Assembly: GCA_900095095.1 (NCBI GenBank)
Contig: FMBT01000599.1
Coordinates: forward strand, 1-39,367
Length of the DNA: 39,367 nt
Reading direction: 5' to 3'
DNA from: Fragilariopsis cylindrus CCMP1102
Lineage: Eukaryota; Bacillariophyta; Bacillariophyceae; Bacillariales; Bacillariaceae
Both the position numbers and the translations under genes were made by a program. Every line of letters begins with the position of its first letter. Positions within the stretch are counted from its first letter, which is position 1. Below the pieces are notes generated by a model. It ran no database searches. It was not told the origin of the DNA and saw nothing but the letters and a program-made list of their open reading frames with translations. Of this stretch, positions 2,942 to 39,367 are shown in pieces.

Positions 2942-5900
2942 TTATCGCTGTCGCACCATGACTAAATTGTGTTGTTGTGGGGTAAATAGTTCACAATGTT
3001 TCTTGACTTCACTGTTTTCTTTCATCTTGAGAAGCTGATTACTGTATATGTAATCATTGATCTGTTTGGGACTTCGAGTTTTGACATATCTAGATATTCT
3101 TGCGTACTTATCTTTTTCGTTTCTGTATAAGCCTATTCCCTCAATGATTAGCTTGCGTTCGTTTGCAGAATATGTACCGTACCGGAATTCATTGTCTTCG
3201 TCAAATTTTTCCTCGTCACTACTATCTGTATCTGAACCAGATGAATTACGATCTTGATCATCTGTACTTTCCTCTTTGTTTTTACCATTAAATTTTCTTT
3301 GGAATTTTACACTACGTGCATGGTCTCTTAACTTGTTAGCTGTCCGCCAAGGAAGCAGTTCGTCCCGGATTGTAGACCACCGATTTCCATATTTCTCAAG
3401 ACCTTGATGTAAAAGAGTTTGTTCTTTAGGAGTAAATTTTCCGTTGTTCACTTCTGGGAGATATGATGTAGTCGAAGTGGGTCGCTTTCCGTGGTTTCCT
3501 CCAGCATTGTTTTCATCATCTTCGTCGTCGTCATTGGACTTGAAATACCTATATCCGTACATCTTTGTTTGATCTATAGTACGGGTTTTAACAAATTCCG
3601 AGGTAATTTTCCTATAATTCTTCCCATACTTCTTCAAACCTTTTAGGAAAAGCGTTTGTTCAGCGGGAGACCTTTTACATTTGAATTCAAAGTAGTTTTA
3701 AATAATGAGGGAAATTGAAAGAATGAGAAACATGGAAAGTTTTGTTGCTGGGCCAATTTGAGTGCATCACAATTAATTTACGTACCATTTGCCTTGCTTC
3801 AATTGTCGATTGCTGGTCGACTGTTTTGTTATTGGAGTTATAGCCTTCTTACGACTTGATTTTGAGGGTCGCGTACTTTTCTTACACTTCGATTTTTATT
3901 GTCGTCCTGATGTTCGTCCGGTTCTTCGGTCTGCCAAGCCGGTCGTTTACGCTTTCGAGACCCAAATTGTTCTGTATCCCAGTATGATGAATCACCATTG
4001 TGACCTTGAAGTTCTTTTAACTTTGTCGATGAATCTGCATTATCCATCTCAGACGTAGATAAAATAGCAGTTGTCCTTATGCGTTTCTTTTTGCTTCGAC
4101 GTTCGTCAATCGGCTTATGAGGATTTTCAAAAAAGGTATGGGCATGATTAATAATCTGCCTAACCGTACGTGTCGGTAGAAGTTTATAGTATTCAATTTC
4201 GTTTCCAAAAGTATCTAAACCACGACGTGTACCTAATAACTTAATACCATCCAAGAAAAGTTCATGTTCTTCATAAGTAAACTCGCCTTCATTCAATATG
4301 CATCCATTATCCTTGAAATAAGCTTCCGCATGCTGTTGAACGATCTCGAGCATTTCAGAGTCCATCGCGCGACGATCCAATGATGTCTGTTCTATTGGAA
4401 GACTTCGAACCGTGGCGTCGTAGTTTTGTTTGATACAATCATTCTGCATAGTAGTTGCTTGTTTCTCAAAGTAATAAGATGCATAATTTAAAATTTGTTC
4501 CGCCGTACGGTTCATCAAAAGTTTTCTGTCATGCATCATCTTAGCAAAATCATTTTTTCCATCAATAGTTGGGTCCCAAAATAATTTAATTCCCTTCAGA
4601 AAACTACCCTTCTCGTAGTTAGTCCATGGATGTCCAATTATTTTTGGATCGTTCTTCTTTTTCCCGCGATTTCTACCCCTACTTGATACACGCCAAAGAA
4701 TTTCTTTATCAGTTTTGCTAGTCGTCATTGCAACGCCGCCATCGCCGTCGCAATCGCCATCACCGTGGTTGAGTAACGGAGTAGAATTCACAACTTTCTG
4801 CCTATTTTCGACTGTGACAAAGGAGTCGTCAGTATCGAGTGATTTCGTACTGTTTCTCATATCCTTTTGCGTATCGTCGACTGCAGTATCGAAACCTCCC
4901 ATACTTCTTCCTCGAGTGACCCCATCTCCGGTATTGATTTTTTCTTCCACATTTCTATCGACAGAATTAACGTCAGTATCATTTTTGATTAAACGACGCC
5001 GACTCTTGGCAGATCGATTCATAGATTTGAAAAGCAGTTTCATATTATCCTTTATCGTAGAAGTAGTGCTGTTACTACAATCGCTATTCTTGCTCTTTTC
5101 GCCATTTGCATAAACTTTTAGTCTTTTTGTTGGTGTACAAAACATGTTATAACGAGTGCCAGCGGCATTATTATTGACAATAGTTGCTACAACTTTTGTT
5201 TTGGTTGTAGTAGTCGTTATGTCCTGTCTTCTTCCTCGATTAGCCGCCGACATATATTCAGGGATTCTCGTCTTCGTAGTAGCAGTAGCAGTAGCAGTAG
5301 TATCGGCTTGTTTCACTTCTTGATATTTACAGATAGAATTGACTGTTGCAGCAGTGCTTACAGCAGCGCTTGCAACTTCAGGTGTTTTTTCCTTTATCTT
5401 GTTACTATAAGTATCATCTTGTCTCTTTCGTTGAGCATCGCAGTTGTTATCACTTTTTCGTTTCTGATCTTGTGTTTGTAACAAAGAAGCAGTATTGTTA
5501 AACGAACCCGTAGCGGGCGATGCCACAGCTTGTGAAGGCGGAGAAGTGACCGTACAAGCGATATTTTTATTACTATCAGCGTTAGTGCCACCCCCTCTAT
5601 TGTCACCATTACCAGTAGGAGCTGTGCTGTTGTTTGCCGAAGTACTTTCGTGTACTACTTTACCGTACCGCTTCAAAACACCATTACATTCTGTTAGTGC
5701 TTCTTTATAACCAGCAATATGCCTATTTTCTATGAGAATACGTTTGATATCTAGTCCATCCTTTACAAAGAAAACGTCATCGTAGTTGTATGGAATCACT
5801 CTATTGTTTTGTGTATATCCGAATAAAAATACCCCACAGCGTGACTCACTTATTGCTGCATTTGTACAATCTTGAATAAACAACCGACGATTCGCCGAAT

Positions 5901-6408
5901 CGTCATCGCTGTCGTCGCTGTCGTTGTTAGCATTTACGTTGATGTTACAAATACTATCATCTTTATTTTTACCACGACGAACAATATGAACACTTGATAA
6001 CAATGATTCTTCGTCGTTATTTTCAGCAGCATCTAAATCCCAACATTTCTGAAAATCGTTTATCATTATTCCGGGCCACGGAATACTACTACTACTACGA
6101 TCTTTCTGCTGGTGCTGCTGATTAGGATTACGATCGCTATTATTACGAAGTTGAACAAAACAAAATCGTTCCTTCGAAAAGAAGGATGTTTTTCGAATAC
6201 TTTTTGGAGGTTTGATTTTTTTCGGTTTCTTACTTATTATGCTATTATTCGTGCCTTTTTTAGTATTCGTCTCGTTTTCGTTGTTCTTATTTTGACTCGA
6301 ACTACGGGAATGATTACGACTACCATCATAACAATTTCGATTACAACGACTTCGATCGACTTGATCGTCGTCATTATTACGTTCGCGTTCGCGATCAGCA
6401 TGATCCAT
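2942..6408 (-). CDS. five-repeat SANT/MYB-like nuclear protein (two exons)
   Basis: Exon 1 runs 6408-3786 and exon 2 runs 3671-2942. The intron 3785-3672 (114 bp) has a GTACGT donor and an AG acceptor; joining them recreates one SANT repeat (GKW|SPAEQTLFLKGLKKYG), which confirms the splice. The predicted protein is about 1117 residues. The first ~590 residues are low-complexity, rich in Asn, Asp, Ser and Thr. Five SANT/MYB-like repeats follow at about 592-650, 706-764, 872-920, 951-1001 and 1039-1086. Each has the pattern F/W-T-x-x-E...L..G...YG and ends in a helix such as NYASYYFEK or NHAHTFFEN, recalling the SHAQKYF class. Basic Lys/Arg stretches suggest nuclear location. A single-base frame break lies at the A5 run at 3893-3897 (minus strand); one more A links exon 1 to the splice site in frame. 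DNA binding or chromatin role is inferred from the family; targets are unknown. Confidence 0.8.
3672..3785 (-). other. intron of the SANT/MYB-like gene
   Basis: The donor GTACGT is at 3785-3780 and the acceptor AG is at 3673-3672 on the minus strand. The exon before it ends two bases into a Trp codon, and the first base of the next exon completes it. The intron contains in-frame stops, so it must be removed to link the repeats. Confidence 0.8.
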
Positions 6409-7590: not shown

Positions 7591-7840
7591 GTCGATCCAT
7601 TGAAAAGGCAAGTGAAGGAATGAATCAATCCTCATTTTCAGACGATCCATTAAAAAGGCAAGTGAAGGAATGCATCAATCCTCATTTTCGAACGATCCAT
7701 TAAAAAGGCAAGTGAAGGAATGAATCAATCCTCATTTTCGGACGATCCATTAAAAAGCCAAGTGAAGGAATGCATCAATCCTCATTTTCGAACGATCCAT
7801 TAAAAAGGCAAGTGAAGGAATGAATCAATCTTCATTTTCG
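7591..7840. repeat. five 50-bp tandem repeats with a 100-bp higher-order period
   Basis: Five head-to-tail copies of a 50-bp unit start at 7591, 7641, 7691, 7741 and 7791. Units 2 and 4 share two variants (GACG start, TGCATC middle) and units 3 and 5 share the alternatives (AACG start, TGAATC middle). The array therefore also repeats with a 100-bp period, as expected if a dimer was duplicated. No open frame runs through it and no function is evident. Confidence 0.9.
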
Positions 7841-8235
7841 AAATACTGCTTATACGAGAATAACATTACAGGCAAAGATGTGGGTATCGTAAATTGCTCC
7901 TTAAAAAGTGTTAAAAAAATCCTAACGTCGCATGTACACTGCATATAAACGTTTTAATTTGCAATAAATCGGAAGTTGATGGCATGATTGCCAAACGCAT
8001 AATATTCGTTCTCGTTGCTGATGAAAACTCATGGCGCGTGCATGCGCGACCACATCCGCCACAACAACAAACAGTATACAGTAACGTGTAGCGCACCCAG
8101 TCAATAAGAATGTAGTTTTCTATCCCTTTATTTCTTTTCTCATAAAAATAAAAACACTCCTCGAAACAAAAACGAACGAACGAACGAACACAGAAACATA
8201 AATCGAATTATACAAATAAAATACTACAACTCAAT
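7841..8235. other. upstream region of the membrane protein gene
   Basis: About 400 bp between the tandem array and the ATG at 8236. It contains an (AACG)n run at about 8171-8189 and A-rich sequence directly before the start codon, as often seen in 5' untranslated leaders. No coding signal is seen. Confidence 0.4.
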
Positions 8236-15417: not shown

Positions 15418-17816
15418 CTACTCTGTTAGCTCGGAAGCAACAGTACTAACACTAACACTACCTGTTGCTGTTGTCTCATATAATTTCTTTTCCACATGAT
15501 ATGCTGTGTGACAATCAACGACTACCAAATTTCCATCCACATCCTTGGTTGAATTACAAAGGAAAAAATCGATTCCCTTCTCCAGACTACACTCTTCACA
15601 TACATACTTTGACCTGTAGGCTCTTTTTCTCTTTGATCCAGTATTCTTACCAGGACAGTTGTGGTACTTGCAATAAGCTGTAGCCCTATTCTTCTTAACA
15701 ACCACCGGTACAGATATATGATTTCTTCCAGGCTGGCGTTCCTTTCGAAGCTTACAAGAAGCTTTACGATAACGAAGAGCCCGACCAGTAAGATCAGATA
15801 CTGGTGTTTGAGGAGTTCCAGTGTGTACTGTAGGGGAGGTAAAATGTTGTCTAAATGCATCAGATCGAAGTTTTCTTCCATCCAAAGAAGATGAGGTAGT
15901 AGTAATATCCTTTGTAGCACTTGGAGTATCTCCAAAGCCTCTAGTCCGAATTTCGGATCCTTGTTGCAGTAGTGAATGAGTCAAATCGTTGATACATGAT
16001 CTCATTATCATTGGGGTCCTATCAGGATGGTACTTGGTGTAAAGGTACTTGTAGATGTTGTAGGCATTGTTAAGATTCATATTGAAAAACCTAGATGCTA
16101 ACTTGGGGGACCAACCATGCAGATGTGATTCAGTTGATAGGTCGTACTTGGCTTCACTTCCATTCCCTTTATCAATCAAATGATATGTTTGACAGTACAC
16201 CCACTGTTGCTCAGGGCAATCGACATCAGTGAAGTCCTTGTTCCTCCTGTGTGTTACTGGATCCCTCAGCTTTCTCTGAATTCCTCCTCTTAGAAGATTA
16301 GGACCATGAAAGTTAGAAAGCGTCTTGACATAGTTGTTATCAGCCCAAATAGCATAGGTAATGGGCTTGTCCTTGTGTTGATACATAACTGATTGATGTG
16401 TACCAACCTTGATTCCTCTTGCAGCGACAGTTGCCTTACCAAGACTACCAGCACCAGTACGATTGGTTTGACAAGTACCCACCATGTTGATCTTCCATTC
16501 TTCTCTTCCAACTTGACACATGGCATCACTCATGTAAGCAGAATCCATGACAACACAATGACCCTTATGCTTGAATGGATCAAGCATAAGGTCATAGAGA
16601 GAGATCATCTTGTATTTTCCATAATCATTGATCTCTGGAATATCTTCATCGAATTGACCACCATAGACTCTAGCAAACAACTTGAATGTACTGAGAGGAC
16701 CTGTAGTGATACAGACAGTATGAATAGTAGCTCCAGTTCGAATTGGTTTTGGTTCAGGTCCAATTGTCATACAGCTATGATACCAGCCACCAACTCTACT
16801 TTCATCTGTAGTAATCCACTTGCCAAAGTTGACAATAGCTCGCCATCGCTTGTAAGAAGAAGAAGAAGAAGGAAGGTATGTGTTAGTAATCGATTCGAAA
16901 CAACAACAACAACAACAACATATACAGTACATACCTTATTATACCCATCTTCCAATAGACCATGTTTCAATCGATGCTTTGCAGTGCCTGGTGGTCCAAC
17001 AACTTTTGGATCATCATATATGTCATCCCAATCACCACCACACTCTGGATCCCAATCGTCACTGTAGTGCAAGCATGTAGTAAGATCCTCCAAACAAGCT
17101 TTGGTCATTGATTCTCTAATCGATGGTACGGCATCCATGATCTCTCTTGTTGAAAATATCTGATCAATCGATCTTCCTCCATGAATCATTCTACATAGAC
17201 AAGCACCATAGAAACGAGCCACATGGTCTCCAGTTATCACTTTATCTCCTGTATAGTACCTTGGCTTGTAACCATTTTCAAGAACTCGCTTCCTCATATA
17301 GTTTCGCATCCTAGCAGCTTGAAATTCAAACAGAGTTTGATCATCGTCATCTCCAAATCTGGGAAGGCACCATTGGAAGACCTTCTCAAACCTGATCTCT
17401 CCATCAATGTCCCTTAATGAAGCTAACTCTTCATCAGTTATCTTAACAGTGAACTCTTCATCTCCTTCCCATGCAAGTGGTTCAATCGGACGACCACCAG
17501 TATCAGTATCACCATCTTCAATAACAACCTCATCCCATTCCTCAGCTTCTGTTCTAAAATATTTTTTTGTTTCTGTTTGTATCTCATCATCACCATCACG
17601 AATAGGTTGTTGTGTTAGTTGGAACTCGTTGTAAGTGGAGGAATCGAAGTCTGCATATTTATAGATAGCCTCATATGCCATGAGGTAGAGAGCATCATCT
17701 TCTTTAGTATCTAATAATAAATTCCATCTTTGACTGATAGGACAATATGAATCGATTCTTCCATCACAGAGCTTGTGACTCTTGTAACCGGGCCACCAGG
17801 ACTCAGGGACCTTCAT
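15418..17816 (-). CDS. piggyBac-like transposase (DDE_Tnp_1_7), two exons
   Basis: Exon 1 runs 17816-16935 (294 codons) and exon 2 runs 16848-15418. The 86-bp GT-AG intron is in phase 0 (GTATGT donor, TTACAAG acceptor), giving about 770 residues. Candidate catalytic aspartates are D309 (WITTDES), D396 (CVVMDSAYMSD) and D504 (TDVDCPEQQ), at spacings usual for the family. The helix after them (RFFNMNLNNAYNIYKY) matches the conserved end of the catalytic core. At about 690-755 a Cys/His-rich domain (CKYHNCPG, YVCEECS, FFLCN, VDCHTAYH) is the C-terminal zinc-binding domain that recognises the transposon ends. The first ~100 residues include VPESWWPGYKSHKL and an acidic region. Upstream of the ATG the same frame stays open for 16 codons and reads like protein (SSEWAESLVGLS), so a further 5' exon is likely. 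Confidence 0.88.
16849..16934 (-). other. intron of the piggyBac transposase
   Basis: On the minus strand it begins GTATGT and ends TTCTTACAAG, with a GTT repeat and a pyrimidine-rich CTT tract between. Removing it joins ...GYNK to RWRAIVNFGKW in frame, immediately before the first catalytic Asp. Confidence 0.85.
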
Positions 17817-20646: not shown

Positions 20647-22383
20647 ATGAGCCAGCAAGAAGAACAAGAGGATACTAACGAAACACTACCTACTGAAGGA
20701 AGTGATAACGATAGTAGATCCACTTATTCCGAAGCAACAAGTGGAAACCAAGCGCCCGAAGCGTTAGGTGAAGGAACTCGTAGTCCCCCTTTTTGGGCAG
20801 ACGCTAACCATCGGACTGAACTAACCTCTCTAGGTTATAACGTTCACACACCGAACCCGCGCAGAACTACTCGTTCAAGAGCTCCGACTATTAGATATAC
20901 ACCATCTGGTGATACTAATCAAGAGGAAGCCGATATAGAAAATAATCTTTTAAATATCCAGGTAGAAGTAAACACAGCTAGAGAAGAAGACGAAAGCACA
21001 GCAAGCGCTTATAGCGGCTTACGCCCCGGCGATCCACTCTACGTCTCTCCGCCTAGACTACCTCTACCAGATAGTTCAAGTACAGATACATCTAGTGTTC
21101 CGGAACGTCCCAGTCCACCTGAACCTATTGAAGAAGTCATTGATACGTCTTTTACGCTCGGAACATTTCCAACAGTACACGATCCTTACGTAAAAGGTTA
21201 CGAAATTACTGCCAGAAATCCAGTTCCTATTAACGTACCTCTACCTTCTCTTCCAGAGACTCCACCTTTACCTTCTCTTCCAGAGTTACCGTTAACAGAA
21301 CGCCTTGATACATTGCTAACCGAGATCTGCAATTTCAGAGTCCGTAACTTAACAACTCGACGTGCATTTGCTACTAACATTACGCCTAGTAATACTAGCT
21401 CACCCACGATGGCGACCACTCCTTTCGATGCGGAACTCGAAGTCCTCTTGGTGAATATGTTGAAATGTACGACGGCAACAAATCCGATATACCTTGTGTT
21501 AGATCAGAACCACATCCACACATTTGAACAATTTCGTTCTATTGAAATTGATGATTTGCCAACGTTTAAATACAAAAGCCAACCACTGCAGGCACCGAAG
21601 AGACTCTCCATATAACACCACTCAAGGAAGTACAAAACTGTGTACACTTTGTTGTTATCTGAGACCGCTGCTGCCGTTGCTCTTGCTGGTGGAGTCATCG
21701 ATTGTGACGATCCGTCTACATGGGATTATGCGGATATGTTAAACTGGAAACGTGCAATAACTGGTAAAGCTACATATCTTCGAACGTTAGTTATACCAGC
21801 AACGACTACAACAGGTGCTCCTGGCTCACCAACAATGATAGTTTCAGGCCCTATCACTTTAAAAGATGATGAAGCCGCACTTATCAGTTGGAATCGAAAG
21901 CCTCGAGATCCTGTAAAATACCCGACCATCAACAACGATGCTTTCTATCAAGATTGGAAACTAAATTTTAAAAGACAAATTATCCAAGATACATTGGAAA
22001 GAGTATTGGATCCTAATTTCAATCCCGATCTTCGATCATCAACATGCTCAGTACGTAGTGGACCCGATGCAGAACTAGCAAGACTTCAAGTTAATTACTT
22101 CGCTCAAATCTTGTGTGTAGTTCTTAAGAACCCCGAAGGTCTAGGTCTTCTTATGGTCCGTCCAGACGATCCGTTATATGTATGGAGAAATCACGAAGAT
22201 CATCAGAATGACTCAGATGCAGCTCAGATAGCTTCAACCACACTGATGAAGAAATTAATTGCATTGAAATTCAGCGATTTCAACACAAGACATGAATTTC
22301 TTACTTCATTTCAAGATACCTCCAGACGGTACGATCAACTAGCTACTAACGTCATGGATGATTCGGTAAAGATAACATTATTG
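20647..22383 (+). CDS. copia Gag region (split by frame breaks)
   Basis: It starts at ATG 20647 (MSQQEEQEDTNETLP). The first ~200 residues are acidic and Pro/Ser/Thr-rich, with repeated PSLPE motifs near 21245-21290. The capsid-like part follows: IEIDDLPTFKYK at 21540-21575, then LHITPLKEVQNCVHF in another frame at about 21594-21657, then back to the first frame for DPSTWDYADMLNWKRAITG and the helical Gag body up to about 22383. A stop at 21613 is explained by a one-base loss near 21592 (a GG that would be GGG) and a one-base gain near 21658. Gag forms the virus-like particle that packages element RNA. Confidence 0.7.
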
Positions 22384-24390
22384 CAACAGCAGTCATGACC
22401 GATTCCGCGTTAATTAACTCCTGGCAATCATGTCAAGATAGTAAACGAGGAAGCGCTTTAGCTGGATCTTCTAGACCTGTTACGTATCATGAGTACATCT
22501 CGTTTCTTATCAAATCAGCCAAGAATCATGATCTATATACGCCATACAAGAAACCATCCCGTCAAGCTCATCAAGCTACATCAGAATCATTTTACAATGA
22601 AGAAATGAATGTAGACTATGGCGACACTGACGATGGCATTGACGAGTTCTTAGCTCATATGTCCGTATCCAACGAACCTATGACCGAACACGCTGAAAGT
22701 ACAATGCAAGCCTATGCAGCATTCCAGAAGAATCGTCGTCCTCCTCGTGAGAGAGACCCTGACACTGAAATACCGAAACCAATCTTCGAAAAGTGTCCAA
22801 GAGATTTACGGATTGCATGGAGTAAGGCACCCAATGATATTAAGAAACAGATTCTTAAAATCAAAAACCATCCCACTAAGCAAGGTGCTAAGAAAAATAG
22901 TGAGTTAGGTGTCTACATTAGCGATTTTGAAGGATATGACTCCGACGCATCCGGCCAATCAGAGCATACCTACGTATACGACGCTGATGATGCTGACGAT
23001 ACATCTGTCATAGAAGCAACTGATTTGACGGCAAATGCAGCAAGACGAAGACAGCCCAATCAAGGTATACTCAAGAAGAAGGAATTACCAAGGAAGACTG
23101 AGCTGCCTTTAGCCGATCCACGTCGATTCATGGCCAACAAAACCACACCAGTAATAGGTAAAGATGGTAAAGTTGTTGGTCATATCGCATATACGGCAGC
23201 TATGGCTAAAATCAATCATCGTTTTGATCAAGTCGATTGTCATCTACCAAATACTTCCAAAGACAACTACGTCGTCTCCGTTAATGCAACGAAATTCTTT
23301 AATGAACCACTCGCATTAATGGATGGCGGAGCTAATGGTGGAATTGGAGGCAGAGATATGAGACTCATGTCTTACAATGCTGACGGACGACGTGTCAATA
23401 TAGGTATTGCAGGTGATCATCAAATGACTGGCAAGAGACTTGGAACGTTTTGTTCTGTAATTGTTACAAACAGAGGCAAGATTCTAGCCATATTTCATCA
23501 ATATGCTCATGTACCTGAACAAGAAAAATCGATCCATTCGAAATGTCAGTTCCAAGCGCATAATAATCTCGTTGGAGATACAGCGACAGCCTATGGCGGA
23601 CCACAACGTATTCAAACTGCAGACGGATATCAGTTACCTTATCTATACGCTCTGGATTACCGTACATTCGCCAAACGTATCCTACCAATGATGAAATTAA
23701 AGAGCTTACACATGTACAGTTTACTTCACCTGCGGAATGGAATCCTAATCTGAATGACGATAGCCGTACACCTGAAGAAATGCTCAAGCAATTTCCTCCT
23801 ATGCCACGTTCCGCTATCAACGAGTTCTACGATCAAGAAGGTAATATTAATTACGACTATCTTTCTAAACAAGAACATAGACCAATACGTGCAACAGTTC
23901 AAACCGTTGAAATTGAACATGATGATGATGACAGTGTTGGATCTATGCCTGGTTTACAATGTCGAGCTCAAGAAGAAGATTCCTCAGGTGATGAAGAAGA
24001 TTCCTCAAGTGATGATGAACCTGTAGTTAATAAATTCAAGCAACCAACTACAATTGTATGGAACGATCCAATCGATGACTCCAATGGGGAGAAAATTGAA
24101 TGTCCTCGACTTAGAAAAAGTAAGCTCAAACGCCGTATCCGAATCAAAGAGAAACGACTCAAAGCTGCAGCCTCTAAACAAGAACTGATTGATAAGAAAC
24201 CATCTGCTGTTACAGCTAATGATTTACCAATCCCAATTATTGATAATATGGTCAATGATAACGAATCCCCTACAATGGTAGACGGCATCGAGTTCTTTTC
24301 AACGGATCCTCATCCACTTCAACCTAATATCATCGACGACGTTATTGAAGAAATGAAGATGGATGATCTACTATTCTACGATTCAGTAGA
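22384..24390 (+). CDS. copia Gag end and aspartic protease region
   Basis: The frame resumes at about 22384 (NIIATAVMTDSALINSW) after a one-base loss in an AAA run. It runs through an acidic stretch (DADDADDTSVIEA) to the protease motif LALMDGGANGGIGG at about 23315-23356, which is the D-x-GANGG form typical of diatom copia elements. GIAGDHQMTG follows. A second break lies near 23672, where one base is missing by an AAA run. The frame then reads PTNDEIKELTHVQFTSPAEW and continues as a highly charged spacer until a third break near 24391, again at AAA. The protease cleaves the polyprotein during particle maturation. Confidence 0.7.
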
Positions 24391-26540
24391 TAAACCCAGG
24401 ACTCAACAGTATTCGTAGATACAAAATCAGACACCTCGTATCTTGATGACTTATCTACCTTCAGACCAACTGAACACGAATACTGGGAAGACTTTTTAAT
24501 GGATGAATCTACTCAACGTCTAATCTATCAAGGAAGACTCGATTATTATGAACAATATGACATTAATGCTACCGACATTGCTAATGTAATGAATCCTCTT
24601 ACACCAAGATATTCTGTACCCACGGTCATCGATTATGAATCCAAAAGGAAGTACTTTGCACATCTACCTGCTTCTGTTGTTAAAGCTACCTTCAAGCATA
24701 CAACTCAAAATATGAAACTACCCCCAGCCTCATATCTGCACAAGATGTTCAAATCACCTAATCCTTCTGCGAATCTCAAACGCCGTGATGAAGACGATGC
24801 CACCGACATGATCTATTCAGATACTCCTGCATGCAACGGTGGTGAGAAATGTGCACATATCTTCGTGGGACGAAAATCGAAACTCACCGATGCATATAAA
24901 GTCAAACATCAGAATGCTGAAGACTTTCTACTTTGCTTCCAAGATCGTGTCCGTCAAAGAGGATGTCCCACTGGACTAGTAGCAGATAATGCTCCTATGT
25001 ATCGAGGATGGAAAAAACGCAGTGTACCTTCGAGACATTTGTATTTCACTATGGCAATGCGAATCCAAATATCAGCACCAAAACTATGCTGAAAATCGAT
25101 GGCAAACCGTCAAACGGTACACGAACCGAGTAATGGACCGCAGCGGTTGCCCTCCCTACGTTTGGTTTCTAGCATTATCCTATGTTATATTCTGTCTCAA
25201 CAATTGTGTTGATCCAACCATCGGAGAGGGAAACAAGAGCCCACTACAAATCGCAACATTTCAAATGACTGATATTAGCCCTCTGCTATACTTCTATTTT
25301 TGGGAACCTGTCTATTATCTCGTTGATGAATCAGAACAGCATTTCCCAAGTAAGTCCAAAGAAATGAGAGGTCGATGGGTAGGAATCTCTGAACATATAG
25401 GTAACAAGATGACCTACAAAATCATTTCCGATACAACTGGAAACGAAATTTGTCGTTCAGCCATACGTACTGCACGGGACAATACGATGAAGAACCTACG
25501 CGAAGATCCTGTCACGGTAGACAAAGATCTATTCAATGTTGAAACTATCCTTTCTCCGGCAGAAGATATTGCTAACAATAAGTTAAAAGAAGTAACCTCG
25601 GGAAATACTTTTAACGATTTTGATGAATCAGCAATATCCAAGGATATCGACATTCAACTCCAGGCAGAATTAGATGCAAGATTTAACGACTCGAATGAAC
25701 AGCAGACTGGTCATTTTAAAACGGCGTCGCCAAAACGTGCATCTCCTACTGGACCACAACGTCATGTAAAACAGAAGCGTTTAAGCGACTTAAATCCTCT
25801 GGATAAAACTAAGGATAAAGGTTTACGACGTAGTTCACGACATAAACCCCTTCAAAACTTAAACGTTAAAGGAGTTACCACACTATTGACCCAAGTCAAT
25901 AATACTGATATCAACCATCCCACCAACCCACAGCCGTCTACCGCAACTCGTCAACAAGTCCTCAAGCAACGTGACACATCTATCAAGGAACAGCTAGATT
26001 CATTTGTCTATCTTCGAGAAAATGGGGAGAATGAATATCTTTTGGGAAAAGAATTTGAGTTTCCTCTTAAAGACGAAAATGGCAACGCGATACTCGGAGA
26101 CGACGGCAAACCGTTGGTAGCAATAGCGCCCCCACCAAGTGATCTAGTAGGAAGAGTTTTCCTAACCAAACCCGACGAGAGAGGTGAAGTTAATAGAGCA
26201 CGAGTTGTAGAACTTATCAAAGACTTTGAAGGCAAAGTTGAAAAGGATATGAATCTAATCAAGTTCAAGCTAAACTATGATCACAGTTCCCAAGAAGACA
26301 TCATGTCGTACAACGAAATTCTGGACTACATCGAAAGAGAACAGAACAATGAAGACGGACATCATTGGAAATTTCGTACTATCTTAGGACACGTACATAC
26401 TCCTGTGGGACACAAGGATAGAATGGGGAGTGACTACAACGTCAGAACAGCTTGGGAAACGGGAGCAATTTCGGTTGAACCATTGGACTTCCTTGCTAAG
26501 GACATTCCTGTTGATCTTGCTATCTATGCCAAGAAATTGA
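24391..26540 (+). CDS. copia integrase region
   Basis: After a short lead-in (TVFVDTKSDTSYLDDLS) the integrase domain gives the DDE set: Asp in TDMIYSDTP (about 24806), Asp in GLVADNAPMY (about 24980) and Glu in NYAENRWQTV (about 25086). A frame change at the A6 run near 25011 separates the second Asp from the Glu; removing one A gives a smooth join. The C-terminal part has RGRWVGISEHIGNK and, after a charged linker with DLNPLDKTKDKGLRRSSR, the segment FRTILGHVHTP...YNVRTAWETGAISVEPLD. That segment resembles the Trp-Glu-x-Gly module found before reverse transcriptase in diatom copia elements. Integrase inserts the cDNA into the genome. Confidence 0.75.
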
Positions 26541-28440
26541 CCTACTCGAATTGGAAGGATGGAAACGCTTTAAAAGAATTGCTAACCGAGATAAGCATAT
26601 TCGACGACTTGTGAAACAAGCCAAGCTACGATCCTTCCGTGTTACTCCTAAGTACAAGTATGGATTCTCTATACCGCGTAACTACAAGGAAGCCCTTGAG
26701 TTTGACGAAAGGAACGGTAATCATAAATGGCAAGAAGCAAATGTATTGGAACATGCACAATTAACGGATTATGCAGTATTCAAGAACAAGGGAGAATTCC
26801 ATGATGCAAAGATACCAGAAGGTTATCGCAAGATCAAAGTTCATACTATCTTTGATGTGAAACACGATGGCAGGCATAAAGCTCGAGTTGTAGCTAATGG
26901 TAACCTAACGGATACGCCACTCGAATCTGTTTACTCAGGTGTTGTTTCATTACGCGGATTACGTACATGCATATTCTTAGGAGAACTTAACGGCATGACC
27001 CCATGGGCTACTGATATTGGAAATGCTTATCTTGAAGCAAAGACCACCGAAAAGGTATGCATCAAAGCAGGGCCAGAATTTGGGGAGCTACAAGGAAACC
27101 TTCTTATCATCGATAAGGCTCTTTACGGATTAAGACTTAGCGGAAAAGCATTCAACATTTTGCTATCTGATTGTCTACGCGACCTAGGATTCTACCCATC
27201 CAAAGCAGAATCAAGTATTTTCATGAGAAAATGTCCTACAAGAGACGTGTACGAATATGTGGCCACATATGTTGATGACCTATGCATTGTTATGGAGAAT
27301 CCTAGGGAGTTCCTAAACCAGCTGTCGTCAGCACCGTACAACTTCAAACTGAAAGGTTCAGGAGAAGTTAACTTCCACTTAGGTTGTGGATTTGAGAGAG
27401 ACTCTGATGGAGTATTATGTATGGACCCAAGCCGGTACATAGACAAGATGGAAGATGCCTACAAGCAATATTTCAAGGAATTGCCTAACCAGAAGCACAG
27501 ATCACCGCTAGTGAAGGGAGACCATCCAGAACTTGATGTAACCGAGTTTCTTGACCAAGACGGTATTGAAATATATCAATCCTTAATAGGAGCTATGCAA
27601 TGGGCAATCTCTATTGGACGATGGGATATACAATCCGCAGTAATGAGCTTATCAAGCTTTAGAGCGCAACCACGAAAGGGACATCTTGAAAGAATCAAGC
27701 GTATCTACGGATTCTTATGCAAGTTCAGGCATTTCAAACTACGGTTTCGAGTTGATGAACCAGATTATTCCGGTATTCCACCAATGCCACCCTACGATTG
27801 GAGCCATTCTGTATATGGAAACCCAACTGAAGACATCCCTAAAGATGCACCAACTCCACTGGGAAAACGAATCGTTTTGACCCATTACTTCGATGCAAAT
27901 CTAATGCATGACGTACTATCAGGAAAAGCAGTTACAGGTGTAGTTCACTTCTACAACAAGACTCCCGTTGATTGGTATTCCAAGAAACAATCTACCACGG
28001 AAACCGCAACGTACGGATCTGAATTCCTGGCATGTCGAACCTGTTTCGAACAGATCATTGATCACCGACAGTATCTACGATACCTTGGAGTACCAGTAGG
28101 AGATGAAGACTACGCATGGGGAGACAATGACGCGATGATCAATAGTGCAACCATACCGGACGCAAAGTTACATAAACGACATAACATTCTGTCATTTCAC
28201 TTTGTTAGAAGCTTAATTGCAAGTGGTTTCATTAATCTGCAACATATTAAATCGGAAAGTAATATTGCAGATATACTTACGAAACATTGGGGTTATCAAA
28301 GTACGTACGAATTGATCCGCCCAATCTTTCATTTTGGAGGTAACACGGCCGCGTTATATTTTGATGATACATTAGAAGTCGATCGCCACATTACTGAATC
28401 AGAGTTAGCAGAAATCGTTACGACCAATGGGGAGTGTTAA
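26541..28440 (+). CDS. copia reverse transcriptase and RNase H
   Basis: This is the longest uninterrupted piece. Reverse transcriptase motifs include DVKHDGRHKARVVANG (about 26856), WATDIGNAYLEA (first catalytic Asp), DKALYGLRLSGKAF and the catalytic YVDDL at 27268-27282. RNase H follows with Asp in YFDAN (about 27890), Glu in YGSEFLACR (about 28018), Asp in WGDNDAMINS (about 28121) and NIADILTKHWG (about 28261). The frame joins the integrase frame after a one-base loss near 26552, in the TGGAAGGATGG stretch. The stop codon is inside the LTR: the last two codons, TGT TAA, are the first six bases of the 3' LTR (28435-28440). Confidence 0.9.
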
Positions 28441-32656: not shown

Positions 32657-33228
32657 ATGTTTAGAAAAATAGAAAGAAAAATCTACTATAACAGCATCAT
32701 TACAATGATTGTTGCCATTACTTCCGTGAAGAAATGGGATGCGATTTGTTGTGTCCTTCTTATTGCATTATTGTTTGGATATGTGAGTGCAACTGGACAC
32801 AGCAACAATGAAAAGAAGGACCGTAGAAGAACTAAAAGATTTACTTATCCCGTACCATCACCAACGTACAGAACACCATTTCCTACACTTAGACCACCAA
32901 CTGAATGGCCAACTACACCTACATTACCGCAAAACCAAACTGTACGTCCTCCGCCGTATCAGAATCTGAGTCCAACTCCGAACTCGCCGTTACCAAAAGC
33001 ATATGTTGAGGATCCGTACAATGAAGATCCATACCATGATGATCCGAGTTCTATATATGAATTCCTATTTCTGAAACCTCGTGCAGCTCTTGAACCTCCC
33101 CAAAGTCCAACTATGAACCCATCATCAGGAGAACCATCATCAGGACCAAGTCTTGGACCATCACTAAGTCCAACAACTACTCCGACAGCTACCCCTATAG
33201 TCACGGTTCGTAAGTGTAATAATAAATG

Positions 33229-33260
<32 letters not shown>

Positions 33261-36200
33261 ATGTCGTTCCTTCTCTTGTATAATTGATAAATCTATCATC
33301 ATATTCCATACATATAATATATATAGGAGGGCGATTCAGATGATACGGGAATTTTGTCAAGCGAAACAGGATTTTTGCGTTTTACAAAACCCAAATTTGT
33401 GCTGCGTTTTGACGGTCTAGTGTACAAAAGAACGCAACAACAAATAATTCTGTGACATTCAACGTAGATACAATTCCCGTATCACCCGAGTCGCACTCCT
33501 ATATATAATATATACATATTATATATTATTATTATTTCTATGTTTCTACTGTCTCATCATCTATTATTGTTATTATTGTTATTATACTCATCATTATCGT
33601 CATCAACAACTACAACAATTATATATAGTTGATATCGTTTGCTCAGAGGAAAATGTGGATGTACTCAGTTTCTTCTGTAGAGCAGTACGTTTTGTTGGTT
33701 ATGATGAAGTATTGGACATCATTAGACTGTCAGAGTCACCAACTACATCACCGTCAGAGTCTACATCACCGTCAGAGTCTCCAAGTACATCACCGTCAAA
33801 TTCAACAACGTCAGAGTCACCAAGTACATTCGGTGTTGGAAATGGATTGAATGAAATTTTTGGTGGTGTTGCATCTAATTCTAGTCTTGATGTTGCTGCA
33901 GCTTCTATTGTTTCAACAACATTAAGTATTTTAGGTCTACCACAGCCAACAAGGCGAAGACTACATCTGGACGAAAATGAAAATGGAATTGATTTATCGT
34001 CTGCATTTGTTACTATCAATTCACGTGCATTAACTGATAAGGAACTACATGATCGTCAATTGGTACGGAATCCGTTACATGATCATCGTGATTTAGAAGT
34101 TACGCAATCAGTTGAAACAATTATTGGAGGTGTTACTAGTCAAATTAATATCACATGTGATGTATTAGAAATATCATGTATCAGTCTTGATATATTTGAT
34201 GGTAGATTTTCATGTATTAAAATTAATTTGGAAGGTACTATTGAACCTGGTAGTCAGGAATATATTAATAGTGCAAATGATCTAATTAATTCTACGATCC
34301 TTGAGGGTAAATATTCAAAAGATGCTGGTATTAATGTTTTCTCCTATCAAAATAGGCCATCAACAACGTCCACACCAACTGATAATCCTACTGATACACC
34401 GACTAAATCACCGACTAAATCACCGACTAAATCACCGACTAAATCACCGACTAATTCACCTACTGATAATCCTTCTGAAACACCTACTGATTCGCCGTCT
34501 CAGTCACCGACTAATTCACCTTCAAGTTCACCTACTGTTAATCCTTCTGATACACCAACTGATTCGCCTTCTAAGTCACCTACTAATTCACCTTCAAGTT
34601 CACCAACTAGTGTACCTTCTGATACACCGACTGATTTGCCGTCTACGTCACCTACTAATTCACCTTCAAGTTCACCAACTAGTGTACCTACTGATACACC
34701 GACTGGTACACCGACTGGATCACCTAGTGAACCCCCTAGCGGATCATATTTCCCTAGTTCAGCTCCAAGTTATACACCTACAAATAGTCATGTTCCAAGT
34801 GTCTCACCTAGTTCTAGTCCAACTGTGTCACCAAGTACATCTCCAACTTCTATTCCAAGTTCCTCTCCTAGTTTTAGTCCAAGCATATCACCAACTTCTG
34901 TTCCAAGCTCTAGTCCAAGTTCTAATCCTATCGGTGTACCAAGTGGTGGACCAACTTTTTCACCTTCTGCATTTCCAAGTGGTTTACCTACTGATTCACC
35001 AAGTAATGTGCCTAGCACTGCTCCTAGTATTTGCAATCAGAGTGTCGTGGACCTGGGTGAGATCAGCTGCAACAACACCAACCCGACCTTAACCGGCAAC
35101 ACAACAACATCTTGCAGCCAATATGGCAATGAGGCACCCGAAGACATCTTTGCCTTCACCGTTGGCGTCACAGAAACCTTAACGTTCAACTCTTGCGGCA
35201 GCACCTACAATACCTATCTCAAGGTTTACGACAAGGATTGGGTCCAGATTAACGGTTACAACTACGGGCCATGTGGCGGAGAATATATTACGCTGGATTC
35301 CGGAACATACTTTCTGGTGGTCGAAGGATTTTTCGAATGCATTGATGGAGACTGTGATTACTCTAGCGGTGAATACGTTGTTGTGATTTCTGCGGAATGT
35401 TCACCTACTAGTTCTCCTTCAAGTTCACCTAGTATTTGCAATCAGAGTGTCGTGGACCTGGGTGAGATCAGCTGCAACAACACCAACCCGACCTTAACCG
35501 GCAACACAACAACATCTTGCAGCCAATATGGCAATGAGGCACCCGAAGACATCTTTGCCTTCACCGTTGGCGTCACAGAAACCTTAACGTTCAACTCTTG
35601 CGGCAGCACCTACAATACCTATCTCAAGGTTTACGACAAGGATTGGGTCCAGATTAACGGTTACAACTACGGGCCATGTGGCGGAGAATATATTACGCTG
35701 GATTCCGGAACATACTTTCTGGTGGTCGAAGGATTTTTCGAATGCATTGATGGAGACTGTGATTACTCTAGCAGTGAATACATTGTTGTGATTTCTGCGG
35801 AATGTTCACCTACTAGTTCTCCTTCAAGTTCACCTAGTATTTGCAATCAGAGTGTCGTGGACCTGGGTGAGATCAGCTGCAACAACACCAACCCGACCTT
35901 AACCGGCAACACAACAACATCTTGCAGCCAATATGGCAATGAGGCACCCGAAGACATCTTTGCCTTCACCGTTGGCGTCACAGAAACCTTAACGTTCAAC
36001 TCTTGCGGCAGCACCTACAATACCTATCTCAAGGTTTACGACAAGGATTGGGTCCAGATTAACGGTTACAACTACGGGCCATGTGGCGGAGAATATATTA
36101 CGCTGGATTCCGGAACATACTTTCTGGTGGTCGAAGGATTTTTCGAATGCATTGATGGAGACTGTGATTACTCTAGCGGTGAATACGTTGTTGTGATTTC

Positions 36201-37974
36201 TGCGGAATGTTCACCTACTAGTTCTCCTTCAAGTTCACCTAGTATTTGCAATCAGAGTGTCGTGGACCTGGGTGAGATCAGCTGCAACAACACCAACCCG
36301 ACCTTAACCGGCAACACAACAACATCTTGCAGCCAATATGGCAATGAGGCACCCGAAGACATCTTTGCCTTCACCGTTGGCGTCACAGAAACCTTAACGT
36401 TCAACTCTTGCGGCAGCACCTACAATACCTATCTCAAGGTTTACGACAAGGATTGGGTCCAGATTAACGGTTACAACTACGGGCCATGTGGCGGAGAATA
36501 TATTACGCTGGATTCCGGAACATACTTTCTGGTGGTCGAAGGATTTTTCGAATGCATTGATGGAGACTGTGATTACTCTAGCGGTGAATACGTTGTTGTG
36601 ATTTCTGCGGAATGTTCACCTACTAGTTCACCCACTGTTTCTCTTAGTGGTTCACTTACTGGTAATCCATCCAGTATTCCTGGATCTGAATCACCTGGTA
36701 CTGGTATTCAATCATCTACACCTACGGCAATTAGTATTATGCCTTCCAGTATTCCTGGATCTGAATCACCTGGTACTGGTATTCCATCATCTACACCTAC
36801 GGCAATTAGTATTATGCCTTCCAGTATTCCTGGATCTGAATCACCTGGTACTGGTATTCCATCATCCACTACTACAACTACACCAGTACCTACGGCAGTA
36901 CCTACGGTAGTACAAACGGCAGTACCTACGACAGTACCTACGACAGTACCTACGGCTGTACCTACGGCTGTACCTACACCAGTACCTACACCAGCACCTA
37001 CACCAGCACCTACACCAGCACCTACACCAGCACCTACACCAGCACCTACACCAGCACCTACACCAGCACCTACACCAGCACCTACGGCTGTACCTACGGC
37101 TGTACCTACGGTAGTACAAACGGCAGTACCTACGACAGTACCTACGGCTGTACCTACAGCAGCACCTACACCAGTACCTACAGCAGCACCTACAGCAACG
37201 TTTGTGGAGGAAACCGCCGAACCAAATTTTTTTGTTTTAAATCCTTTTCGTAATCTGATTGAAGGAGAAGACGAAGTGGAAGAAACATTTCAATCTACTG
37301 ATTTGCCATCTAAGGAATCAGCGTCAAATTCGCCATCTAATCCACTAGCAATGTCTTCTGCTACTGATAATAGTCTTAATGATACGACCTCATCAACAAT
37401 TCAATCTTCTGCTGATTTGCGGTCGTTGCAGTCTAGTAGACCTTAGTGGGAGGTATTGGAGCAGATCGTTTTCCACTCTACATATCTTCAGATAAAATTA
37501 TCCGGTACACAATATTTGCTCCTACCAATGCAGCATTTGCTCTATTAGATGAAGAGACATTAGATAATTTTTTTACAGAGGATGGTAAGGAAGGATTAAA
37601 ATATATTTTAGGTATCATTTAATCAGTCATGACAGTATTAATTTTCAAAAATTAATATGTGGTTTTCCTTACGAAATGGATAATGGTCAAACAAGTGAAA
37701 CAAAATGTGATGGTCGTGGTAAAAAATACCAAGTCGGAGCTGGTAATACGATATCTACAATGAACCAGAAATTGAGAATGGAAATGAAATTGGTGACAAT
37801 GGTGTAGTGCATGTTGTGAATAGATTTCTTATACCACCTGTTTTACTCCCATCATCAGAACCATCATCACGACCATCATCATCATCACGACCATCAGCAT
37901 CATCACAACCATCATCATCATCAGGACCATCATCACGACCATCATTAAGACCATCATTAGGAACAAGTAAATAG
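32657..37974 (+). CDS. secreted mosaic adhesin-like protein: mucin-like, 4 x PPC-like, FAS1
   Basis: Exon 1 runs 32657-33209 and exon 2 starts at 33647. The splice joins c|ag into a Gln codon, in phase. An ATG at 32705 gives a clean signal peptide (AICCVLLIALLFGYVSA) and may be the true start. Then come a Pro/Thr-rich part, an unrecognised region at 33830-34350 (with RRRLHL, a possible dibasic cleavage site), a long Ser-Pro-Thr mucin-like stretch (34350-35025), and four PPC-like beta-sandwich domains of 135 residues with eight cysteines each. Pro/Thr/Ala/Val repeats follow. A stop at 37444-37446 ends the long frame. A fasciclin (FAS1) domain follows in shifted frames (TIFAPTNAAFALL at about 37507, NGVVHVVNRFLIPP at about 37800), then a Ser/Arg tail to the stop at 37972-37974. 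The architecture fits a cell-wall or adhesion protein; function is inferred. Confidence 0.72.
33210..33646 (+). other. intron of the adhesin-like gene
   Basis: The donor is GTAAGT at 33210-33215 and the acceptor is TTTGCTCAG ending at 33646; length 437 bp. It carries a (TA)n run at about 33233-33260 and a MITE-like element. Without splicing the signal-peptide exon would end at a stop after the TA repeat. Confidence 0.8.
33325..33500. mobile_element. MITE-like element inside the intron
   Basis: The 176-bp sequence has imperfect 29-bp terminal inverted repeats, about 24 of 29 positions matching. The left end starts AGGAGGGCGATTC and contains GATACGGGAATT; the right end is the complement of AGGAGTGCGACTC...GATACGGGAATT. 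It has no coding capacity. Both flanks are TA-rich (ATATAT), so the target duplication (TA or a longer TATA) cannot be fixed. The autonomous partner is unknown. Confidence 0.75.
35026..36624 (+). repeat. four 405-bp repeats encoding PPC-like domains
   Basis: Copies begin at 35026, 35431, 35836 and 36241, exactly 405 bp apart. I see copies 1, 3 and 4 as identical over the domain; copy 2 differs at two positions (Gly to Ser in YSSGEY and Val to Ile just after). Each encodes VVDLGEISC, TTTSCSQYG, FTVGVTETLTFNSCG, STYNTYLKVYDKDW, CGGEYITLDSGTYFLVVEGF and EYVVVISAEC. This is the pattern of the bacterial pre-peptidase C-terminal (PPC) fold. A Ser-Pro-Thr linker separates the copies. Confidence 0.93.
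37441..37974 (+). pseudogene. FAS1 domain segment with three frame breaks
   Basis: Three reading frames carry consecutive parts of one fasciclin domain. The first runs 37443-37610 (GGIGADRFPLYISSDKIIRY, then TIFAPTNAAFALLDEETLD and EGLKYIL). The second runs 37613-37749 (YHLISHDSINFQKLICGF, YQVGAGNT). The third runs 37750-37974 (NGVVHVVNRFLIPP and a Ser/Arg/Pro tail). Each transition needs exactly one extra base. Either the gene end is decaying or three single bases were lost in the assembly. FAS1 domains mediate adhesion in many extracellular proteins. Confidence 0.7.
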
Positions 37975-38159
37975 ATAGTTTATATTATATTTGATTATAT
38001 TCCTTTGAAATGTTTGTTTGCTTTTGTTGAATTAGGATTATATTATACTTACAGTATCACCTCTAAATTGAATGAAAAAAGATAAATTATAGTCTCTATC
38101 TTTGCCGTCAACTAATTCTGTAGAAGCACGATCGAACCGGACCAATTTTAATTTTATCC
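37975..38159. other. 3' flank of the adhesin-like gene
   Basis: AT-rich region after the stop; probably the 3' untranslated region and terminator. No specific signal is certain. Confidence 0.35.
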
Positions 38160-38530
38160 TTTAAAATAGTCCGTAGTTGGTGGTGGTGACAAAGAAAAAG
38201 GTCGTACACTGAAGTTCGATATCGAATACAGGAAAGTTCGACCAATGGTATTCTTATTGCCGAACTGTGATGATATGCTATCGATAAGAGGGATCCGCAT
38301 CACAAGCAACTATAGAAAACAAATAATAAGAGCATACCGTCAAGCTCGAGTCCAGTGGTCAAATGAAATCATCGGGACAACATCTTGGAAATGTCTCTCC
38401 CATGCAATATAACGGATTAACAGAGACATTCTAAAAATGAAAGTCAGAGACATTCTAAAAATGAAAGTCAATGCCGAATAGGAAGTCGATACAGATGAAA
38501 CAACAACAGATGATTCTTCCTTCTGATTTA
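38160..38530 (+). pseudogene. decayed coding relic, probably transposon-derived
   Basis: One frame reads as protein for about 120 codons with two internal stops: FDIEYRKVRPMVFLLPN, IRGIRITSNYRKQIIRAYRQ, ARVQWSNEIIGTTSWKCLSH, then INRDILKMKV. A 24-bp block encoding RDILKMKV is duplicated in tandem (about 38421-38470). The composition and the WKCL...INRDIL pattern recall repeat-derived proteins of diatom genomes, but I cannot name the family. There is no start codon or partner domain. Confidence 0.35.
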
Positions 38531-39289
38531 AAAGCGGCATAGCTATCAATGATCATCACGACAATTATAACGATTACGTTCAAAATGATGTCGAGGGTGA
38601 GGAGCTAACGTAATTTACTGTTCGAACGACCAAGAAATATTATGGCTACAATGATTGCTACGAACGACAATGAGGAGGATGAAGAATGGGTGGGCGCGTC
38701 CATTGGTACCGTTCACTGGAAGTACTCCACAATTAATGATGATCACAAAAGAACCATTGAATGATATGCAACAACATTCACTATTCTAGGACGACGTCCA
38801 GTCCATTCGTTATTTATCTGGTGCTGTTTATTAGATACATAGCGTGCCTTGCCTTTTCAATGCCAAAGGTGGTTTGGAAAGAAAAAAAGATGGAACGCGT
38901 ATAATAACTGCATCAAAACAACTATGGCAGAAAATCGCCATCAAATCTGTACGTCTCTGTGGATTTTTTTCTCGATCGATATATAAATATTTCTCATAAC
39001 CTTCGAATGCACTCACCAATCTCACTTTCTCTTTCTCTCTTCTCTTCTCTTTTAGTGGGGACTATTGTTTTATGGTGGCCGGAACAGAATACTTGAAAAT
39101 TTAATCAGTGAGTCCTATCACTCCATCAAGAGCATAGCATTCGATTGGTAATACAATACATTGCTATTCGTTTGTATGTATGATACTGTGGCATATAACA
39201 CGTGTATTATAATATATTGTATCATTTCTGATATGAAAAGAATTAATAGAAAATGGATAGAATTTATTTACGTTTCATTACATTACATT
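38531..39289. other. intergenic region, no gene recognised
   Basis: No long reading frame and no recognisable RNA. A CTCTTTCTCT tract lies at about 39025-39052. Confidence 0.4.
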
Positions 39290-39367
39290 TTACATAACTC
39301 CAAAAAAACGTCGTGCATCTTCTTCGGCTTCAGCATTATCCTCAGCATCCATCGTCGTCTTCATCAT
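39290..39367 (-). CDS. 3' end of a gene leaving the window
   Basis: On the minus strand the last 25 codons before a TAA at 39292-39290 read MDAEDNAEAEEDARRFFGVM in an open frame that continues beyond the window edge. The acidic, Ala/Glu-rich tail looks like the C-terminus of a real protein, and an AT-rich 3' flank follows. Too little is present for a function. Confidence 0.4.
   Translation of the reverse strand: MMKTTMDAEDNAEAEEDARRFFGVM

Follow-up and report, generated by a model that had tools for sequence, protein, structure and literature searches.

The closest described systems, as given in excerpts of the papers cited here, are diatom surface and adhesion proteins. FAS1 has been reported from about 140 diatoms; it is present in adhesion trails, and there is evidence that diatoms acquired it from bacteria (PMC10939406). 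The diatom Craspedostauros australis has the mucin-like CaFAP1 and two very large trail proteins of modular build, CaTrailin4 and Ca5609; the paper that mentions them cites a title tracing trail proteins to bacteria by horizontal transfer (PMC11420354). Several members of the adhesive-trail proteins of diatoms have a GDPH or vWD domain (PMC7335047). DUF285/PARCEL domains are modules that sit within the framework sequences of surface proteins, and six such frames have been reported in Phaeodactylum tricornutum (PMC2996958); another paper names DUF285 as a family with high transcription in diatoms and no known role (PMC11992049). In the open-licence literature searched, we found no paper joining diatoms with the PPC domain and none joining fasciclin with DUF285. 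Here we describe a gene of Fragilariopsis cylindrus CCMP1102 on contig FMBT01000599.1, the whole of which (39,367 nucleotides) was analysed and is called the window below. The gene combines a mucin-like framework, four tandem PPC-like units and a FAS1 region whose reading frame is broken.

A mucin-like framework with a differing central cassette

Our preferred reading of this gene, at a probability of about 0.68, is that a mucin-like framework carries a PPC cassette amplified to four units and has lost the frame of its FAS1 domain. This reading rests on comparison with a gene on contig C500, which was found through its N-terminal domain (82% identity) and the first part of its FAS1 domain (89%). 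The C500 gene is one frame of 1673 residues, with matches to DUF285 (309.4 bits) and, in frame, to FAS1 (50.2 bits). It resembles the window gene in its leader, intron position, N-terminal domain, serine/proline/threonine (Ser/Pro/Thr) flanks, FAS1 DNA and Pro/Ser tail. It differs in having DUF285 repeats where the window has the PPC array, in keeping FAS1 in frame and in lacking an insert in the intron that resembles a miniature inverted-repeat transposable element (MITE). The features of the window gene, in window positions, are as follows.

32705-33209, plus strand: exon 1, with hydrophobic leader MIVAITSVKKWDAICCVLLIALLFGYVSATG and a Pro/Thr-rich stretch; ATG and splice donor conserved in C500
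33210-33628, plus strand: GT-AG intron with an in-frame join; both splice sites aligned with C500
33325-33500, no strand assigned: MITE-like insert in the intron, with inverted ends of 28-29 bases (86%)
33629-37446, plus strand: exon 2, main open frame to the stop TAG at 37444-37446
33829-34356, plus strand: N-terminal framework domain, 77-82% identical to C500, C595 and C598
34357-35025, plus strand: Ser/Pro/Thr-rich mucin-like stretch (Ser 30.9%, Thr 17.5%, Pro 25.1%)
34970-36663, plus strand: central cassette that differs from C500, with the PPC array here and DUF285 at C500 91213-90108
35026-35430, plus strand: PPC-like unit 1, with 8 cysteines
35431-35835, plus strand: PPC-like unit 2, differing from unit 1 at 2 of 405 bases
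35836-36240, plus strand: PPC-like unit 3, identical to unit 1
36241-36639, plus strand: PPC-like unit 4, differing from unit 1 at 8 of 405 bases, all within the last 16
36640-37443, plus strand: Ser/Thr/Pro-rich tail with 75-bp and 12-bp tandem repeats
37447-37847, plus strand: FAS1 relic, out of frame; its first part matches PF02469, and it shows three single-base losses relative to C500
37848-37973, plus strand: former C-terminal Pro/Ser tail, beyond the reach of the main frame; aligned with the C500 tail
37974-38215, plus strand: 3' flank homologous to C500 by blastn, the end of the duplicated unit

The homology stops on either side of the central cassette. By blastn, positions 34716-34969 correspond to C500 91467-91214 and positions 36664-36876 to C500 90107-89895, and the homology at the 3' side joins 37304-38215 to C500 89869-88935. 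In our reading, the window gene is a dispersed duplicate of the C500 gene. DUF285 was not among the Pfam matches of the window frame, and the genome as a whole contains at least 180 matches to DUF285 and at least 150 to FAS1. The Ser/Pro/Thr repeats that flank the cassette would be an easy substrate for recombination and may have been the route of an exchange. What looks like an exchange may instead reflect the gain of a cassette by one or the other gene.

The longest frame of the locus runs unbroken from stop to stop over 33448-37446 (1332 codons), and exons 1 and 2 joined are open for 1440 residues. The predicted product has the leader, stretches rich in Ser, Pro and Thr, an N-terminal domain of no named family and, in tandem, four cysteine-rich units of about 135 residues each. 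A first-pass annotation of this DNA, made from the sequence without database searches, had already proposed the long open frame to 37446, a signal peptide, splicing to a leader exon and long Ser-Pro-Thr stretches, and most of this holds. The hydrophobic leader is present and conserved in C500, as seen in the sequence itself rather than by a signal-peptide predictor. Proline makes up 22.3% of the 139 residues that follow it, and the mucin-like stretch at 34357-35025 is 73.5% Ser, Thr and Pro over 223 residues. The paralogue also supports the splicing, with the intron boundaries corrected to 33210-33628. In the DNA alignment, the window and C500 have in common the donor at 33209/33210, the acceptor at 33628/33629 and the start ATG at 32705; the start first proposed, at 32657, is absent from C500.

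The MITE-like insert is missing from C500 in the alignment and has paired inverted copies on contigs C411, C642, C90 and C70. Short open pieces after an AG had made 33326-33500 a candidate for a lost exon, which is ruled out by the inverted ends and the inverted copies elsewhere. For the N-terminal domain, no family was found in Pfam or NCBIfam and no relative in viral contigs, and its structure model was too poor for use (predicted local distance difference test, pLDDT, 31). Besides C500, this domain occurs in a near-identical pair of genes on C595 and C598, possibly two haplotypes. It is their sole match to the window gene, and their continuation differs.

Divergent PPC-like units in tandem

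Tandem Repeats Finder reports the cassette as a 405-bp unit in four copies with a 99% match. Each full unit encodes eight cysteines, as counted on unit 1, which may form disulphides; 133 residues of unit 4 could be aligned. The PPC domain has a jelly-roll beta fold, and its usual setting in bacteria is C-terminal of a secreted peptidase. No peptidase family was among the Pfam matches of the window frame.

The whole frame matches the PPC family PF04151 with 44 bits, above the gathering cut-off of 25.9 bits. It does so because the scores of four near-identical units add up: one unit alone reaches 20.1 bits (E 0.0012), below the cut-off. PPC homology was therefore tested by profile-profile comparison, for which seven bacterial PPC stretches were aligned, replacing an earlier alignment of three stretches that was too narrow. 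In hhalign, the diatom units matched the seven bacterial sequences with a probability of 95.9% (E 6.3e-9, 72 columns). A second run with other settings gave a probability of 88.2% and a score of 38.7, while the maximum in 100 column shuffles was 19.6, so that 0 of the 100 reached the observed score. The best match of the units' profile in the PDB was a metalloprotease (E 0.083). These comparisons support the units as a divergent, cysteine-rich PPC-like domain. The four such domains proposed in the first-pass annotation are thus borne out by the whole-frame score and the bacterial profile comparison, while in the PF04151 search that it suggested the whole frame passes and the single unit does not.

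Searching the genome with both unit types revealed only two genes, the window gene with 4 units and a second gene with 15.

C395 69839-58971, minus strand: giant PPC frame of 3623 residues (loci L054 and L055), with 15 units at 705-bp spacing

As in the window gene, the C395 units lie between Ser/Pro/Thr stretches. The two unit types are 42% identical, and those of C395 have six cysteines each (counted by eye) against eight in the window. No FAS1 or N-terminal-domain match to the C395 gene appeared in the searches made. Among its 14 full units, 13 are base-for-base identical over 705 bases, which points to very recent expansion or homogenisation, or else to an effect of assembly. In a plasmid search, a C395 unit weakly matched a Shinella M10 metallopeptidase (E 0.05), and the matching stretch itself passes PF04151 with 39.1 bits.

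Several results count against PPC homology and would be expected if the units were another cysteine-rich beta domain that resembles PPC by chance. In addition to the failure of the single unit at the Pfam cut-off, one window unit had no NCBIfam match. The C395 unit had no PF04151 match; its sole Pfam match was Y_Y_Y, below the cut-off of that family. On the whole window frame, PEGA passes its cut-off (23.6 bits; cut-off 20.8) with no single stretch passing, and Y_Y_Y falls just under its own (25.2 bits; cut-off 26.6). When the window unit was compared directly with the PPC domain of the Shinella protein, BLASTP gave no significant match (E 0.29), and a single-sequence model of the unit gave no confident fold (pLDDT 44). 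Against a chance likeness stand the profile-profile result, the shuffled control and the weak Shinella match, and we consider it quite improbable.

Other searches revealed few relatives. The PF04151 model had no matches in the genome, and an alignment of the window and C395 units found no relatives in genome contigs or viral contigs. The window unit had none in plasmids; the C395 unit had none in phages and viral contigs, and in plasmids its matches were two weak ones, both to Shinella. A PDB sequence search with one unit returned five matches of unrelated kinds (best E 0.27).

In guanine-cytosine (GC) content at third codon positions, the PPC units stand apart from all other domains and frames measured. 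The value is 0.551 for the PPC domain of the window and 0.542 for the one on C395, compared to 0.116-0.231 in 30 FAS1 domains, 0.131 for the N-terminal domain, 0.295 for the DUF285 part of C500 and 0.236-0.373 in seven other frames. This composition fits an imported part. Codon selection could explain it equally well, since the two PPC genes share the high GC while being only 42% identical.

Probable loss of the FAS1 reading frame

A FAS1 domain had been proposed as part of the same protein, and a PF02469 search does find FAS1-like DNA at 37440-37619 (26.8 bits; cut-off 22), but not in one open frame. Relative to C500, the window lacks single bases near 37443, 37612 and 37748. The main frame therefore stops at 37446, and FAS1 is spread over several frames. 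The first-pass annotation had named a product ending at 37446 as the outcome that would speak against it, and this is the product that the DNA predicts. What is retained of its secreted mosaic is a mucin-like diatom protein that has PPC repeats and a leader, without FAS1 in this copy. A protein that includes FAS1 fits the family better than it fits the window gene, because C500 has FAS1 in a like framework with DUF285 replacing PPC.

Splicing by one intron does not rescue the domain. We tried single GT-AG introns of at least 50 bases with donors at 36651-37443 and checked the whole protein. None of the 2012 introns kept both FAS1 motifs in frame (92 kept the first motif and 51 the last), which rules this out.

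Apart from the three losses, FAS1 differs from C500 by 15 substitutions in 134 codons. Its ratio of nonsynonymous to synonymous substitution rates (dN/dS) against C500 is 0.32, so that the sequence still looks constrained. The loss is therefore either recent or an assembly error, rather than old decay. If the breaks were errors in the assembly consensus, the true protein would consist of the leader, the mucin stretches, the four PPC units and FAS1. The low dN/dS and the near-identity to the intact C500 copy agree with this, all three events are one-base losses, and in this single assembly FAS1 lies 1.5-1.9 kb from the contig end, so that local errors are possible. These points weigh against a genuine loss. 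However, all three breaks fall within 137 FAS1 codons, compared to none in the 394 codons that could be aligned across exon 1 and the beginning of exon 2, and the frame of 1332 codons is unbroken. With random placement over the 1593 aligned bases, the probability that all three fall in FAS1 is about 0.017. Furthermore, the losses lie outside long homopolymers, and a run of seven T within FAS1 is intact. A third, fragmentary copy on contig C108 covers the third loss site alone and agrees there with C500, so this loss is on the side of the window.

The contig end itself could be compared with contig C723, positions 1-948 of which overlap the window at 38419-39359 with 99% identity, so that the window and C723 probably join. 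There is no difference over 38419-38990, and all discrepancies are confined to the final ~375 bases of the window. Considering the placement of the breaks and the agreement of this overlap, genuine loss of the FAS1 frame is more likely, and we regard assembly error as a rather unlikely explanation.

The truncation could also mean that the whole gene is a dead duplicate, in which case the frame up to 37446 would be out of use as well. Consistent with this are the dN/dS values against C500 in exon 1 (0.51) and the start of exon 2 (0.59), the MITE-like insert in the intron and an upstream homology to C500 that breaks off at 32680, near the start codon. On the other hand, 1440 codons are open, the frame matches that of C500 over the whole alignment up to FAS1, the splice sites are kept and the PPC units were amplified without a frame break. 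A dead gene seems unlikely to us, slightly more so than an assembly error.

Proposed history and function

In our reading, the gene has the following history. The window and C500 genes share the leader, intron, N-terminal domain and Ser/Pro/Thr-rich flanks and differ in the central cassette, with DUF285 repeats in C500 and a cysteine-rich PPC-like domain in the window. The PPC unit was multiplied in tandem to four copies, and loss of the FAS1 frame apparently left a product ending at 37446. The leader, the Ser/Pro/Thr richness and the cysteine-rich domains suggest a secreted glycoprotein, which, being mucin-like, is probably O-glycosylated. The encoded protein is probably a secreted surface or extracellular-matrix protein of the diatom, in which compact beta domains, repeated along glycosylated stalks, would be displayed outside the cell. 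Additional unit copies would provide greater length and more binding sites. A role in binding or adhesion is conceivable from the likeness to diatom FAS1, trail and DUF285 proteins.

More tentatively, and with less than even confidence, we suggest that diatoms keep constant mucin-like frameworks, swap bacterial-type cassettes such as DUF285 and PPC by recombination between flanking repeats, and then amplify them. If so, cassette swapping would be a permanent means of altering what is bound by the cell surface or adhesive, and the third-position GC of 0.54-0.55 in PPC would mark imported parts. Two sister genes that differ at one central block within otherwise homologous frames allow the exchange of domain cassettes, here with domains of bacterial type, to be tested in eukaryotic surface proteins; such exchange would link the surface properties of diatoms to fast gene remodelling.

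Other features of the window

The window is the whole of contig C689 in an assembly of 67.9 Mb and 818 contigs. The silicon-transporter family PF03842 has 27 matches in this genome, which are exon pieces rather than genes and mark the genome as that of a diatom. Elsewhere in the window, a Copia-type retroelement (RVT_2) occupies 20647-28440, its coding frame split into several pieces that overlap, and a transposase of the DDE_Tnp_1_7 kind lies on the minus strand at 15418-17816, together with an overlapping second frame that has no family match. Two genes with Myb-type DNA-binding domains are found on the minus strand at 2942-6408, and five tandem copies of a 50-bp sequence (94% match) at 7593-7842.

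Comparison with known systems

The window gene differs from the FAS1 proteins of diatoms (PMC10939406), as described in the excerpts used here, in that its FAS1 frame is broken. Compared to the DUF285/PARCEL modules (PMC2996958), it carries PPC rather than DUF285 at the cassette position. The likeness to CaTrailin4, Ca5609 and CaFAP1 is one of description, as large modular or mucin-like proteins. No vWD family was among the Pfam matches of the window frame. The parts of this gene are of known kinds; what is new is that genes with one framework differ in their cassette, and that PPC units occur in arrays.

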